This document shows positions 6,979 through 44,113 of a stretch of DNA of 64,000 nt, piece after piece (the stretch's first letter is position 1; the number at the start of each line of letters is the position of its first letter). The stretch covers positions 1 through 64,000 of the forward strand of contig WTCE01000112.1 in the NCBI GenBank assembly GCA_013138735.1, given 5' to 3'. Source of the DNA: Crocinitomix sp. GTDB taxonomy: Bacteria; Bacteroidota; Bacteroidia; Flavobacteriales_D; Crocinitomicaceae. The notes under the pieces are model-generated. The model had not been told where the DNA came from, ran no database searches, and saw nothing but the letters and a program-made list of their open reading frames with translations. Made by a program: the position numbers and the translations under genes.

Positions 6979-7019
6979 AAAACCAACCTTAAGCGCAAAG
7001 CAAAGGGTTGGTTTTTTTT
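6979..7019 (+). terminator. Rho-independent terminator after the first parvulin gene
   Basis: AAAACCAACC pairs with GGTTGGTTTT (10 pairs, 17-base loop), followed by a T-run. It lies about 20 bases past the stop codon. Confidence 0.88.
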
Positions 7020-7055
7020 ATGACTACATTTGTTCACTGAGTTGTAAACTTGCGA

Positions 7056-7925
7056 ATGCACGCCTTAAAAAAGATATTAAATCCAACCACTCGCCTAACC
7101 TTCACTGGATTATTAGTGCTGGTCGTAAGCGTAAGTCTTTCTTGCAACGGCAATAAAGATAAAGGTCGTGTAATAGCGCAAGTTGGAGAGCATGAACTTT
7201 ACGAAACAGATGTTCAATTTTTGGCTTATACGCAATTGGATAGCGCTGCGGTAGTTTCGCATTATGTTGAAGAATGGGTGGCTGAACAAATATTGGTGAG
7301 CGAAGCAGAGAAGGATGAAAATGTGGACATGCAAGCAATTGATCGGCGAATTGAGGAGTTTAGAAATGACCTACTCATTCACCAATTAGAAGATAAGCGA
7401 ATTGAGGTACAATTAGACACGACTGTAAGTACAACAGAAATTGAAGCTTACTATAAGGATCATCAGGCTGATTTTCAACTGAACGATTATTTGGTCAAAG
7501 TGCTTTACCTTAAAATCCCATTGGATGCGCCAGACATTGATAAAATTGGTGGGGCCTATAAATTGCGGAATGATGAGGACATAGAAACCATTGAAACCTA
7601 TGCAAAAATGTACGCTTCTAACTTTTATTATGACATTGAAAGCTGGATCTACTTTGATGATATCTTAAAAGAGATACCTTTGCATGATATTAACAAAGAT
7701 CGATTTATACTTAAACGATCGAAAATACGTTTTGAAGAGACTGGATTTTACTACTTTTTGAACATAGTTGATTATAAATTAAAGAACAGTACGTCTCCCA
7801 TTAGTTTTGAGCGAGAAAATATAAAGGCTAGAATCATTAACTTAAGGATTAAGGATTTACGCCAGACGATTAAAAATGATATTATTAAAAAAGCATATGA
7901 TAACGGTAAGGTCACAATTTATTAA
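7056..7925 (+). CDS. SurA-like lipoprotein lacking a parvulin domain
   Basis: About 289 residues from ATG (the track start is an upstream TTG). A signal peptide ends in the lipobox SVSLSC, so the protein is lipid-anchored. The N-terminal helical part ([44 protein letters not shown]) resembles the SurA/PpiC N-terminal chaperone region, but no HI-h-h-parvulin core is present. It overlaps the true parvulin gene that follows, so the two are likely co-translated. It may be a chaperone module without isomerase activity (inference). Confidence 0.75.
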
Positions 7926-38915: not shown

Positions 38916-40052
38916 ACACTTTTCAAAATCATTTATTTTTTGCTCCACCACTTTTTCCCAAACAAATTGTGCTGCGATTAAATCCAATGATTTTTGTTTC
39001 AGGGCGGTTAAAAATTCATCCTCTAAATTAGCGATTGAGGTTATGGCTTCTTCCAAAGCATTTACATCTGGTTTTTCAAGCAAGAGTCCGTTTCCTTGAA
39101 TCTGACGGGCAACAGCACCTACATCTGTCCCAATTATTGCCAATCCACAAGCCATTGCTTCTAAAATAACAGTTGGCATTCCTTCTGAATGACTGGGGCA
39201 AACCAAACAATCTTGCTGCGCTAAAATGGCCTTAATGCGATCTGTATCTCTAATCTCACCCAAATAATGAATGCGCTCATCTTGAATATGTTTGTTTTCT
39301 GGAATTGGGCCAATAAATGTAAACTCAAAATTAGTTTCCATCTGAATTAGTAATTGAATTGCCTTATTGAGCTCTTCAATTCCTTTTCGGCGTTCATCCC
39401 TGCCAATAAACACGAACTTTCTAACCGCATTATTGGGTGTAGTATTCTCCGCCAACCAATGTGCTTCAATTCCGTTTGATTGATGTAAGATTTCTTCGGT
39501 TTTCACACCAAGGTTTAGCAGTATTTCATCTATTTTTCCGCCGAAGGAATAAACATAATCTGCATTTCTTAAATTCCATTTTACTGCATTTTTAAATAAT
39601 GTGTATTCAGCCATTACTCTTAAACTTGGCGCAGTTTGATACATTTCTAATCCATGAAAATTAACAAAAACGGGGATTGTCAACTTTTTTTTATGCTTTT
39701 CTCGAATAAATCGCCAACCCGTAAAACCTTGGGCATAAATCAAGTCAAATTCATGCAGTTGATCTTCTAATTCTAGAAAAGCATTTCTCGAATAAGCTTT
39801 ATTCTCACGAATGTAATGCCCAGGAAAAGGATCAGTTTTAGGGAATTTCACAACTGTTTCGGCAATAAAATTGAACTCGTCCTCAGTAAATAATTCCTTG
39901 AATTTTTCAGGACTATATTCATTTCCACCGCAATGCATGAGGTGTACTTGAATTTGTGAATTGGCTAAAAGTTTTGCAAGTATTAAGGAATGCTTCTGCA
40001 TGCCCCCAATCTGGAACGGGAATATCCCATCTGTCAATAACAAAACTTTCAT
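38895..40052 (-). CDS. GT4-family glycosyltransferase
   Basis: About 385 residues from ATG MKVLLLTDG; the track TTG start adds three residues. N-terminal Rossmann domain (FPFQIGGMQKHSLILAKLLA) and a C-terminal one with the GT-B nucleotide-sugar loop KFVFIGRDERRKGIEEL and the retaining E-x7-E motif in HSEGMPTVILEAMACGLAIIGTDVGAV. It probably adds a sugar to a lipid or polysaccharide acceptor in the cytosol. Promoter TAATTTTG lies 6 bases before the ATG, so the mRNA may be leaderless. Confidence 0.9.
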   Translation of the reverse strand: MKVLLLTDGIFPFQIGGMQKHSLILAKLLANSQIQVHLMHCGGNEYSPEKFKELFTEDEFNFIAETVVKFPKTDPFPGHYIRENKAYSRNAFLELEDQLHEFDLIYAQGFTGWRFIREKHKKKLTIPVFVNFHGLEMYQTAPSLRVMAEYTLFKNAVKWNLRNADYVYSFGGKIDEILLNLGVKTEEILHQSNGIEAHWLAENTTPNNAVRKFVFIGRDERRKGIEELNKAIQLLIQMETNFEFTFIGPIPENKHIQDERIHYLGEIRDTDRIKAILAQQDCLVCPSHSEGMPTVILEAMACGLAIIGTDVGAVARQIQGNGLLLEKPDVNALEEAITSIANLEDEFLTALKQKSLDLIAAQFVWEKVVEQKINDFEKCLVHREV

Positions 40053-40058
40053 ACGCGG

Positions 40059-40066
40059 CAAAATTA
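40059..40066 (-). promoter_or_regulatory. Glycosyltransferase promoter -7 box
   Basis: TAATTTTG on the minus strand matches TAnnTTTG and ends 6 bases before the ATG. A similar sequence in the duplicated segment at about 42291-42300 has TAATTTTA at the same place. Confidence 0.55.
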
Positions 40067-40167
40067 ACGAAATTCTACCACGTAAAAGTTTTTTTAATTA
40101 GGATATAGCCACTGTTTAAAGTAGCGCATTGGTTAGTTGGGATATATGACCTAATAAAGCTTGAATA

Positions 40168-41553
40168 TTACTGTGAAATAACTTTTGACATAGTTCCGTC
40201 TGTATAGATATATACTTTCAAACCTTTATAAGTCTCGTCAACTTCGTGTCCCATAAGGTTGATAATTTTCACAATTTCTTTAGCAGCACCATTTTGGACA
40301 GAAACAGTGCCTAACCTATTCTTTTTTCCATCAAAATCTGTTTGAGAAAGACGATAATACGTTATTTCATTTTCAACGCTATAATCTGTATACTCATAAC
40401 CTATTTTACCAGTTGAATTTCCGGCTCCGGCAATGTCAGCTTCAAATTCCCAATTCACACCATCAATGCTTGTTTCAAGGGTGTAGTGTGAATTATTTAA
40501 TTCAGACACAGTACGCCATTCAATTAAGTTACTGTGCCCAACTTGCTTCGCTTCAAATAAAATCAGGTCTATGGGTAATAGTAAACAATCAAATGATGCG
40601 CCCGCAGTTAAATCCCAAGTTAAGTCAAATGAGGTTCCATCTGCCGTATAATTATCAATACAAATAATAAAAATGTCATCCGCGCTAGCAGTAATCGGAT
40701 CAACTACTCCATCACCAAAAGCATCTTCACTAAGATCTCCTGCACCTGCCTCTAAACCAGTATTTCCAGCTACTGCAGCAAATGAACAACGCAATGGCGC
40801 ACCGACTGGTGGACATACTATTGCAGCAAGAGGACCCCAAACGGCAAAATCATAATCCACAGCAGTTTCTATAGTAAACGCGTAATCACCATCAGTTGCA
40901 GCTTGAAAATAATACCATGATGATTGATTTTCTCCAGAGAGACAGCCTTCGTTTGTGGCATCCAGGTCAACAAAATTACCATCACCATCACTATTCCCTG
41001 TAAAGGTCTCATCTGTGCAAACTGTTGTACCACCATCACAATCTGCTGTTGTTGGTTCAACGCAGTTTGCATCTGCTGAAAATAATAAACTCCAACTAGT
41101 TAATGTTCCGTCATCTCCAAATGCATCATCCGCAACATAAAGGGTCCAAGCTCCATCTGCATCTTGTCCATTATTTGCCATATCGATATTTCCGTCAGGA
41201 ATGTATGAACCGTTAAACGGCGCCGTTCCAATCGAAACTGGTGTTACTGCCGCCATGTTAAAACAGGTCACACTATAATCATCTCCCCCTCCACCATTAT
41301 AGGCAGTTAATAAATAAAGGTCGCCGGCTGGATCTTCAAGATATATGAATAAATCTGAATCCCATGTGTGGTCAATGTCAATACAAACCTCTTCTAAGCC
41401 GTAATCACAATCAATTATTCCTACTCCTGCCACTGTAATTGAACTTGAAATTGTTGCCAGCGATACGATTGACGTACCCGGAGTGGTTGTGAAAGTTTGC
41501 CCCCAACCTATTCCAATCGTAAAACTTATAAGAAGTGTGAGTAGTTGTTTCAT
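40168..41553 (-). CDS. Exported protein with P-domain and T9SS-like C-terminal tail, copy 1
   Basis: A 461-residue protein. Signal peptide ends GIGWGQ. Residues 30-165 match the proprotein-convertase P-domain (IDCDYGLEEVCIDIDHTWDSDLFIYLEDPAG ... YIPDGNIDMANNGQDADGAWTLYVADDAFGDDGTLTSWSLLF). Residues 170-330 form a cysteine-containing beta-sandwich with calcium-like Asp/Gly loops. Residues 335-430 form a fibronectin-like strand set (VSELNNSHYTLETSIDGVNWEF), and the last 35 residues (INLMGHEVDETYKGLKVYIYTDGTMSKVI) resemble a short T9SS sorting tail. It overlaps the preceding small gene by 4 bases. A close paralogue follows upstream. Confidence 0.85.
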   Translation of the reverse strand: MKQLLTLLISFTIGIGWGQTFTTTPGTSIVSLATISSSITVAGVGIIDCDYGLEEVCIDIDHTWDSDLFIYLEDPAGDLYLLTAYNGGGGDDYSVTCFNMAAVTPVSIGTAPFNGSYIPDGNIDMANNGQDADGAWTLYVADDAFGDDGTLTSWSLLFSADANCVEPTTADCDGGTTVCTDETFTGNSDGDGNFVDLDATNEGCLSGENQSSWYYFQAATDGDYAFTIETAVDYDFAVWGPLAAIVCPPVGAPLRCSFAAVAGNTGLEAGAGDLSEDAFGDGVVDPITASADDIFIICIDNYTADGTSFDLTWDLTAGASFDCLLLPIDLILFEAKQVGHSNLIEWRTVSELNNSHYTLETSIDGVNWEFEADIAGAGNSTGKIGYEYTDYSVENEITYYRLSQTDFDGKKNRLGTVSVQNGAAKEIVKIINLMGHEVDETYKGLKVYIYTDGTMSKVISQ

Positions 41554-41852
41554 CCCAGGTCAATTTTCACAATTTCTCCTTCAATAGCGACTCCATTTGC
41601 TACTAACTTCAATAATAACTCGGCTGGATCAAATTCTAAATGCGTAAAAACAATGAAACGATCCAAAGAATCGTCAAACTTTACTGCTTTAACACCCATT
41701 AATTTTCGGATGAGGTCAATTTGCATTTTTGCCGCACCATTTTCGGTAATTCCAGTTATCGAAAATTTATATTGAAAATCAAAACTTGGTTCTTGAGCAT
41801 AGCTTAGTGTTCCTAAAAAAAGGGCGAAATTAATCAGGATAATTTTTAGCAT
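41550..41852 (-). CDS. Small exported HMA-fold-like protein, copy 1
   Basis: A 100-residue protein with signal peptide ending GTLSYAQ. The mature part has the beta-alpha-beta-beta-alpha-beta order of heavy-metal-associated domains (FQYKFSITGITENGAAKMQIDLIRKLMGVKAVKFD, FIVFTHLEFDPAELLLKLVANGVAIEG) but lacks the CxxC metal site. It is translationally coupled to the P-domain gene through an ATGA overlap, and the pair is duplicated next door. Its role is unknown. A partner or chaperone for the P-domain protein is possible (inference). Confidence 0.7.
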   Translation of the reverse strand: MLKIILINFALFLGTLSYAQEPSFDFQYKFSITGITENGAAKMQIDLIRKLMGVKAVKFDDSLDRFIVFTHLEFDPAELLLKLVANGVAIEGEIVKIDLG

Positions 41853-42399
41853 TGGGTGGTTAATTGGTAGTTATCTCAGGGAATGTATGACAAAGTTTAT
41901 GACTTTCCTAACAGAATTCGATAAATCCTGTTCAAAATACGACAAATCCTTGATTTGGGTATCTTCAATTATTTTCTCATTTTCATAAAACAGCTTTATT
42001 CTTGATTGACTTTATTATTTGGGTCTGAATTGCTTTACAGGCAATGATTTATGACCTGTCGCCAATCAAGGCAAATCTTAAACCATACGCCAAACCCCAT
42101 CCTACTCTACTTGTTCGATAGATTAGTAGCTTGAAAACCAACTAATATTTATTAAAAAATCCGCGAATTCGGCGGTTAGATCTGTTTTAGGAATTTTAAA
42201 CCTAAAATTGAAATTAATTCGGCGCAAATAATTCCTTAAAATTTTCAAAAAAAATCCAATGGATAGCAATTCAAAAAATTTCATACGTGGTAAAATTATT
42301 GATATTCCACCACGTATAAACTTTTCAAATTGGTTAAAACTACGCGTTAAAGTAGTTCATTGGTTGGTATGGGGTATATGACCTAGTAAGAGTAGAACC
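41853..42399. other. 547-base intergenic region between the duplicated cassettes, holding duplication remnants
   Basis: Its 3' part (about 42282-42399) repeats the sequence between the glycosyltransferase start and copy 1 (40050-40167) at roughly 75-80% by eye, including TTCATACG[C/T]GG and the tail GACCTA[A/G]TAA...TTACTGTGAAATAACTTTT. A minus-strand ORF of 53 codons (42123-42284), starting at the position that matches the glycosyltransferase ATG, is probably a relic. No other gene or terminator is seen in 41880-42120. Confidence 0.55.
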
Positions 42400-43788
42400 T
42401 TACTGTGAAATAACTTTTAACATAGAACCGTCTGTATAGATATATACTTTCAGTCCTTTATAATCCTCATCAACCTCATGTCCCATAAGGTTAATAATTT
42501 TCTCGACTTCTTTATCCGCCTTATTTTGAACAGAAATGGTCCCTAACTTTTTCTTCTTTCCATCAAAATCTGTTTGAGAAAGACGGTAATACGTAATTTC
42601 ATTTTCAACTGTATAATCAGTGTACTCATAGTCTAATTCATTGGACGAATTTCCGGCACCAGCAATTTCAGCTTCTAACTCCCAGTTAATCCCATCATAA
42701 CTCGTTTCAAGTGTGTAATGCGAATTATTCAATTCCGACTTCGTTCGCCATTCAATTAAATTGCCATGTCCAACTTGCTCCGCTTTAAACACAATCAAGT
42801 CAATTGGTAAAAGTGTACAGTCAAATGTCGCTCCTGCCGTTAAATCCCAAGTTAAATCAAAAGAAGTTCCGTCTGCTGTATAATTGTCAATACAAATTAT
42901 GAAAATATCATCTGCAAGCGCTGTTATCGGATCTACCACCGCATCTCCACCCGCGCCTTCGGTATTATCACCAGCTCCAGCTTCTAAGCCAGTATCTCCA
43001 GCGTTTCCAGAGTATGAACAGCGTAGTGGATCGCCAACAGGTGGACATGCTAATTCCGTTAAAGGTCCCCAAACTGCAAAATCATAATCCACAGCTGTTT
43101 CTATCATAAACGCATAGTCACCATCTGTGGCTGCTTGAAAATAATACCATGACGATTGATTCTCACCTGAGAGACAGCCGTCATTTGATGCATCTAAGTC
43201 TTCGAAATTTCCTCCACCATCACTATTCCCCGTGAAGGTCTCATCTGTACAAAGCGTTATCCCGCCATCACAATCTGCAGTTGTTGGTTCAGGACCACAA
43301 TTAGGAGTTGATGCAAATACTAAACTCCAGCTATTTAAAGTCCCTGAAGTTCCACTTCTATCATCTGTTACCTCCAATGTCCAAGTGCCATTTGCATCTT
43401 GACCGTTATTTGCTAATCCAATATCTCCTTCAGGTACATAAGAACCGTTAAATGGAGCCGATCCTGCATTAATATCTGTACCAGCCGTCATATCAAAACA
43501 TGTAACAATATAGTTATTTCCTCCACCTCCGTTATCTGTTGTAAGCTCATAAGTATCTCCATTTGGGTCAATTAAAAAAATGTCCATATCCGCATCCCTA
43601 TTGTGCGAAAGATCAATACAAACTTGTTCTAACCCATAATCGCAGTCAATCGTTCCAACGCCCGTTACAGTAATATCGTCTGTTTCTGTTGAATTATTGG
43701 GGATACTCAGACTTGGCGAGGATGAAAATGTTTGACCAAATGCCAAACCAGTTATGAAAAATGATATGAAGATTAATATTCTGTTCAT
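42400..43788 (-). CDS. Exported protein with P-domain and T9SS-like C-terminal tail, copy 2
   Basis: A 462-residue paralogue of the 461-residue protein, with the same order: signal peptide ending GLAFGQ, P-domain (DCDYGLEQVCIDLSHNRDADMDIFLIDPNG ... YVPEGDIGLANNGQDANGTWTLEVTDDRSG), cysteine-containing beta-sandwich (SSWYYFQAATDGDYAFMIETAVDYDFAVWGP), fibronectin-like strands and the terminal INLMGHEVDEDYKGLKVYIYTDGSMLKVIS. The C-terminal halves are almost identical, while the P-domains differ most, as if the P-domain surface is under change. It overlaps the small gene before it by 4 bases. Confidence 0.85.
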   Translation of the reverse strand: MNRILIFISFFITGLAFGQTFSSSPSLSIPNNSTETDDITVTGVGTIDCDYGLEQVCIDLSHNRDADMDIFLIDPNGDTYELTTDNGGGGNNYIVTCFDMTAGTDINAGSAPFNGSYVPEGDIGLANNGQDANGTWTLEVTDDRSGTSGTLNSWSLVFASTPNCGPEPTTADCDGGITLCTDETFTGNSDGGGNFEDLDASNDGCLSGENQSSWYYFQAATDGDYAFMIETAVDYDFAVWGPLTELACPPVGDPLRCSYSGNAGDTGLEAGAGDNTEGAGGDAVVDPITALADDIFIICIDNYTADGTSFDLTWDLTAGATFDCTLLPIDLIVFKAEQVGHGNLIEWRTKSELNNSHYTLETSYDGINWELEAEIAGAGNSSNELDYEYTDYTVENEITYYRLSQTDFDGKKKKLGTISVQNKADKEVEKIINLMGHEVDEDYKGLKVYIYTDGSMLKVISQ

Positions 43789-44087
43789 TCTATAATTATT
43801 TTAACTAAATCACCAACCAATACTAATCCAATTGTTCCAAAATCATAGCCCATCTCCTCTATGCTCCAGTCCAAATGCGTTAAGATTGTAAACTCATCCG
43901 TTTCGTTATTAAAACGCACTACTTTTACTCCCAACAATTCTCGAATTTCGAAAATTGTATGCTTGGCATCTGAAGGCTCTGTGATTCCTTCAAATTTGAA
44001 TACATAATTAAAGTCGTGACTTGAGTCTTGAGCAAAACTAAAAGACCCTATAAATAGGACGACACTGAAAAATATTATTTTAAGCAT
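43785..44087 (-). CDS. Small exported HMA-fold-like protein, copy 2
   Basis: A 100-residue paralogue of the copy 1 small protein, with signal peptide ending GSFSFAQ and the same fold order (FNYVFKFEGITEPSDAKHTIFEIRELLGVKVVRFN, FTILTHLDWSIEEMGYDFGTIGLVLVGDLVKI). Again no CxxC. It has diverged more than its partner P-domain gene. A -7 box lies upstream and the P-domain gene is ATGA-coupled to it. Confidence 0.7.
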   Translation of the reverse strand: MLKIIFFSVVLFIGSFSFAQDSSHDFNYVFKFEGITEPSDAKHTIFEIRELLGVKVVRFNNETDEFTILTHLDWSIEEMGYDFGTIGLVLVGDLVKIIIE

Positions 44088-44105
44088 TTGAGGTGGCTTT
44101 TTTTA

Positions 44106-44113
44106 TAAATGTA
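44106..44113 (-). promoter_or_regulatory. Copy 2 cassette promoter -7 box
   Basis: TACATTTA on the minus strand is one base from TAnnTTTG and lies 18 bases before the small-protein ATG. The equivalent place in copy 1 reads TACATTCC, a weaker match, so copy 1 may be less active or use another promoter. The rest of 44114-44292 shows nothing recognisable. Confidence 0.45.

Follow-up and report, generated by a model that had tools for sequence, protein, structure and literature searches.

An HMA-like small protein encoded upstream of putative T9SS cargos in a Crocinitomix-related genome: a candidate dedicated cargo partner

In the current view, a signal peptide and a CTD suffice for type A substrates of the T9SS, the CTD being recognised by one general shuttle, PorV (PMC12618676). 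The only T9SS precedents for cognate pairs are the type B substrates with their barrel shuttles: the gene of a substrate with a type B CTD adjoins that of a dedicated PorP/SprF-like protein, which is needed for secretion or anchoring of that substrate (PMC9143113, PMC12618676). No paper pairing the T9SS with an HMA-domain protein was found in the open-access literature. In a window of 64,000 nucleotides (the whole stretch of DNA that was analysed), belonging to a 6.8 Mb genome whose closest relatives are Crocinitomix, two gene pairs resemble the type B arrangement in that a putative T9SS substrate gene adjoins the gene of a small exported protein, most likely a cognate partner dedicated to that cargo.

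Layout and duplication of the locus

Along the direction of transcription on the minus strand the genes follow the order DUF4197-like (a name that we take to be correct for this first gene), small B, cargo B, small A, cargo A and glycosyltransferase-like (Table 1). A preliminary description of this DNA had claimed four open reading frames, two ATGA overlaps and a tandem duplication, each unit combining a 100-residue small protein with a P-domain protein of 461-462 residues, and all of this was recovered on the minus strand, with P_proprotein scoring above the Pfam cut-off in both cargos. Behind cargo B lies a remnant that includes the first codons of the glycosyltransferase-like gene, which shows that the duplication took in the small gene and everything up to the first codons of the gene behind the cargo; the unit ends at this remnant.

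Table 1. Positions in the window of the features of the duplicated cassette
Feature	Position	Strand	Basis
Small protein B, 100 aa, signal peptide about 1-19, HMA-like ferredoxin fold (predicted), without CxxC	43785..44087	-	ORF, AlphaFold2, Foldseek
Cargo B, 462 aa, start codon within the ATGA overlap with small B	42400..43788	-	ORF
P-domain, cargo B residues 55-158	43315..43626	-	Pfam PF01483, 47 bits
Central domain, cargo B residues 169-324, no Pfam/NCBIfam family	42817..43284	-	profile A5, 218.9 bits
Short T9SS-type C-terminal tail (putative), cargo B residues 422-462	42403..42525	-	tail comparison
Remnant behind cargo B: cargo A-glycosyltransferase intergenic region and first glycosyltransferase codons	42274..42389	-	78% identity, 117 columns
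Small protein A, 100 aa	41550..41852	-	ORF
Cargo A, 461 aa, start codon within the ATGA overlap with small A	40168..41553	-	ORF
P-domain, cargo A residues 56-157	41083..41388	-	Pfam PF01483, 36.6 bits
Central domain, cargo A residues 168-323	40585..41052	-	profile A5, 217.7 bits
Short T9SS-type tail (putative), cargo A	40171..40293	-	tail comparison

Copies A and B share 73% protein identity between the cargos and 43% between the small proteins. Between the copies, dN is 0.60 in the small protein, 0.35 in the P-domain and about 0.10 in the central, FN3-like and tail segments, and dS amounts to 1.1-1.8 (0.53 in the tail, over 41 codons), with synonymous sites near saturation. The C-terminal parts, previously called nearly identical, are indeed conserved (81-83% protein identity), but the wording was overstated in view of a dS of about 1.1-1.3 (0.5 in the tail), and their similarity points to an old duplicate kept under strong purifying selection. 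A recent duplication or a gene conversion of the C-terminal half was ruled out by the dS above 1 found there, the tail being too short to judge. Positive selection was likewise rejected for both the small protein and the P-domain, since dN is below dS in every segment and dS is near saturation. The preliminary description had proposed that the P-domain and the small protein form an interface that changes in concert, and had suggested a comparison of synonymous and non-synonymous change by domain. This proposal was not supported: in no segment does dN exceed dS, the distances between small proteins correlate at rho 0.75-0.86 with those of the central domain, the FN3-like segment and the tail and at only 0.21 with those of the P-domain (8 sequences, with no correction for phylogeny), and the seven scanned cargos of distant genera have no P-domain. 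Across all eight pairs, conservation is highest in the central domain. In trees of the small protein and of the whole cargo, copy A groups with the orthologs of sister genomes and copy B branches earlier, with moderate support; the tree of the central plus C-terminal parts departs from both.

The duplication does not define the module, four sister genomes having one copy. In fact, a single-copy pair, syntenic beside DUF4197-like and cinA-like genes, is present in four further Crocinitomix genomes, among them those of Crocinitomix algicola 0182 and C. catalasitica ATCC 23190, and its presence in named isolates makes an experimental test feasible. In another genus (G016) a separate tandem pair forms a cluster of its own in trees (100/100) and arose independently of the tandem in the window. 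The exact 4-nt ATGA overlap is found in 8/8 core pairs, from six genomes, and the search for the pair in other genomes that had been recommended at the outset recovered the linkage beyond the window. One genome (L050, G006:C54, about 7004-7700, minus strand) has a deletion scar in which the beginning of the small gene runs directly into the very end of the cargo tail. A single deletion thus took most of the small gene together with the cargo, which shows that the module is dispensable and is lost as a unit.

Fold of the small protein and domains of the cargo

The small protein had been read as a beta-alpha-beta-beta-alpha-beta, HMA-like pattern that lacks CxxC, and both parts of this reading were confirmed. 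The AlphaFold2 model of small B (15 sequences) is ferredoxin-like, with a pLDDT of about 95 in the mature part, and comprises a strand at 26-30, a helix at 38-52, strands at 56-60 and 65-70, a helix at 76-85 and a strand at 95-98; its Foldseek neighbours are mostly HMA domains (ATP7B, Ccc2, Atx1, CopZ, MerP), with E of 0.006-0.08, probability mostly of 0.98-1.00 and TM-score to target mostly of 0.6-0.7. CxxC is missing from both A and B. More widely, the CxxC metal site of loop 1 is absent from 8/8 core members and from the distant set, the loop being replaced in all core members by GITEPSD, GITENGA and similar; in our reading of the alignment the counterpart of the HMA loop GMTCxxC is GIT followed by non-cysteines, so that GxT is kept. 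The Pfam HMA model matched none of 18 small-family members, no Pfam or NCBIfam family matched the small protein, and a PDB sequence search with the small-protein and central-domain profiles returned no convincing match. Weak matches to the small profile include genuine CxxC HMA proteins adjoining TonB-receptor genes, matches below about 24 bits being mostly signal-peptide noise or such true CxxC proteins. Judged by the CxxC criterion, the small protein is predicted to be an HMA-like scaffold and no metallochaperone.

Each cargo consists of a signal peptide, a Pfam P-domain, a Cys/Asp-rich, family-less central domain with the motif DYDFAxWGP...RCSY, a segment labelled FN3-like from the appearance of its sequence, and a short C-terminal tail. 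The hydrophobic N-termini of cargos A and B end in GQ and were read as Sec signal peptides by inspection and simple hydropathy. The AlphaFold model of the cargo is of low confidence (mean pLDDT 65.7, pTM 0.39), and its Foldseek list of generic beta-sandwiches was therefore set aside. No protease domain was found in any of the scanned partnered cargos, and Pfam scans of 15 cargos returned no subtilase catalytic domain.

The tail, of about 40 residues (N-L-x-G-Q-E-V...Y-K-G...D-G-S...K), had been described as T9SS-like. This stands as regards its position, where homologous cargos have the classical tail, and its recurrence, other ORFs ending in the short tail in 20 of 40 related genomes, but the sorting-domain models PF18962/TIGR04183 (Por_Secre_tail) match neither cargo A nor cargo B. 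We take the short tail as a probable lineage variant of the T9SS sorting signal. It is carried by 25 partnered and 15 fused cargos, another, mostly classical-looking tail being carried by 41 partnered ones. A third copy of the short tail in the genome of the window (G000:C150:39682-39771) lies at the end of a 475-codon frame.

Linkage to the central domain, partner types and fusions

Stand-alone small homologs above 35 bits (profiles A2, then A4) lie directly 5' of a cargo gene in 26/26 loci, one of these cargos being cut by a contig end and another frame-disrupted, and distant homologs of the family reach other genera across Bacteroidia. The P-domain was absent from 7/7 scanned partnered cargos of other, distant genera, and the central domain is common to nearly all partnered distant cargos; the test was therefore reversed to start from central-domain cargos. 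Sixty-six of these were gathered through a cargo/domain search blind to the small gene, controls were taken from related genomes, and upstream genes were called as mechanical ORFs with a simple hydropathy criterion for export. A small exported ORF on the same strand was found just upstream of 42/66 central-domain cargos, against 1/39 generic Por_Secre_tail cargos, a linkage beyond chance (Fisher p = 7e-11, an indicative value, with no correction for kinship and with genome sets that overlap yet are not identical). The overlap of exactly 4 nt occurs in 29/67 partnered cargos. Neither a separate nor a fused partner was found for about 9/66 central-domain cargos, some of them in GC-rich genomes with uncertain starts, and only about a quarter of the P-domain cargos with no detected central domain have a small exported gene upstream. 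The association tracks the unannotated central domain of the cargo rather than the P-domain.

The partners fall into three types. Type 1 is the HMA-like small family found here; type 2 has an HMA-like core with a C-terminal extension (hhalign to type 1: 96.5% probability, E = 8e-10); type 3 has nothing in common with type 1 except the signal peptide, which suggests that the slot upstream of the cargo is not always HMA-like. In two genomes, G126 and G132 (L087 4208-5261, minus; L089 3905-4922, plus), a type 3 gene is followed by a type 1 gene and then by one cargo. Chitinophagaceae and relatives (L346, L347, L349-L351, L353, L361, L366) have P-domain cargos behind another HMA-like small gene (GVxxREDVxSLxxxIQKKxGVxxFMAERFPVRCFVL), some of these cargos having no detected central domain. 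A weak HMA-like small gene also lies upstream of proteins of 962-980 aa with a type B-like C-terminus (L148, L150; G162, G048). As an exception in gene order, a weak small-family match lies 3' of two central-domain cargos (L151 4657-4998, G103:C3), and the N-terminus of at least one of these two is itself a fused HMA-like stretch.

An HMA-like stretch follows the signal peptide in 15/24 "unpartnered" central-domain cargos, five of the 15 being called from the strand/helix pattern alone. The best-supported case is in G034, where one cargo has an N-terminus that matches the stand-alone partner of a paralogous cargo with 35% identity over 95 aa (E = 5.7e-19). Sequence comparison gave further fusions with E between 3e-7 and 3e-5, and profile search added two with 6.6e-7 and 2.1e-6. 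Because the small profile scores generic control cargos with E values as low as 8e-4, no fusion close to that value was accepted as proven. No separate partner was found directly upstream of the fused cargos. That two proteins otherwise encoded side by side occur fused is the best indication obtained here that the small protein acts in direct physical contact with its cargo.

Proposed role and comparison with known systems

The exported two-gene module with a T9SS-type cargo, as first described, is supported by the pairing and by its linkage in other genomes. We hypothesize that the small protein would be translated first, coupled to its cargo through the ATGA, exported by Sec and folded as an HMA-type ferredoxin-like domain devoid of the metal site. 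In the periplasm it would bind the cognate cargo, most likely at the central domain or at the adjacent chain end, thereby behaving as a detachable N-terminal domain of the cargo, and in the preferred version it would pass the translocon as a subunit. We infer such binding, its site, co-secretion and the T9SS route of these cargos, and to the reading as a whole, in which the dedicated partner leaves with its surface cargo, we give a probability of about one half. By extension, it may tentatively be proposed that across Bacteroidia many T9SS surface proteins, forming a large class, each have a dedicated metal-free HMA domain that serves them as a detachable N-terminal subunit (or as a chaperone). 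With the unrelated type 3 in the same slot, this cargo class would follow a general rule of "cargo plus upstream partner", for which the open literature searched has no description.

A rather unlikely alternative is a cargo-specific periplasmic chaperone that, through binding, maintains the nascent cargo in a soluble or unfolded state, passes it to the T9SS and remains behind, the fused forms acting as intramolecular chaperones. Such a role would agree with a small protein that has a signal peptide and no T9SS tail, with a partner gene that comes first and overlaps the cargo start, and with an association tied to one cargo domain. Nevertheless, in the fused relatives the HMA-like domain must travel with the cargo, and SkpA, the known T9SS periplasmic chaperone homolog, is general and not cargo-specific (PMC10994853); co-secretion is thus ranked above a retained chaperone. 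Operon linkage alone never proves contact, and the two genes might be co-regulated, physically independent and held together by operon structure, but this is improbable in view of the fusions, the mutually exclusive cis and trans states and the rarity of such partners with other T9SS cargos. The small protein is very unlikely to be an antagonist or regulator of its cargo in the manner of the ferredoxin-like inhibitor/propeptide I9 of subtilases: I9 belongs to the same fold class and P-domains classically follow subtilase catalytic domains, but the scanned partnered cargos have no protease domain, distant ones have no P-domain, and the top Foldseek matches are HMA domains, with no I9 among the first 50. 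The least probable role is that of a metallochaperone loading the cargo, which is suggested by the HMA fold neighbours and the weak profile matches to CxxC proteins beside TonB-receptor genes and is contradicted by the replaced CxxC loop of all core members.

If Bacteroidia do have a dedicated partner tied to a body domain of the cargo, whether encoded separately or fused to it, the T9SS route would gain a step of specificity or folding, two protein families absent from Pfam and NCBIfam would acquire testable roles, and a metallochaperone fold would have been reused as a protein-binding module. Among known systems, the HMA metallochaperones (Atx1, CopZ, MerP) share with the small protein the predicted fold and the GxT of the GMTCxxC loop, but the small protein has neither CxxC nor a Pfam match and is encoded beside a T9SS cargo instead of a transporter. 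Proteases with a subtilase propeptide/I9 and a P-domain likewise combine a ferredoxin-like fold and a P-domain in one locus; here, in contrast, there is no protease domain, the fold neighbours are HMA domains and the P-domain is dispensable for pairing. SkpA, of the extended translocon of F. johnsoniae, is also an exported periplasmic protein serving T9SS transport, although it is a general component of trimeric Skp fold and is unpaired with single cargos (PMC10994853). Finally, the CTD-reading shuttles of type B substrates are beta-barrels of the outer membrane, encoded downstream in the described cases, whereas the partner described here, predicted to be a soluble ferredoxin-like protein of 100 residues and no FadL-type outer-membrane barrel, is HMA-like, encoded upstream and tied to a body domain of the cargo, and the cargos themselves, unlike type B substrates, mostly carry type A or short tails.
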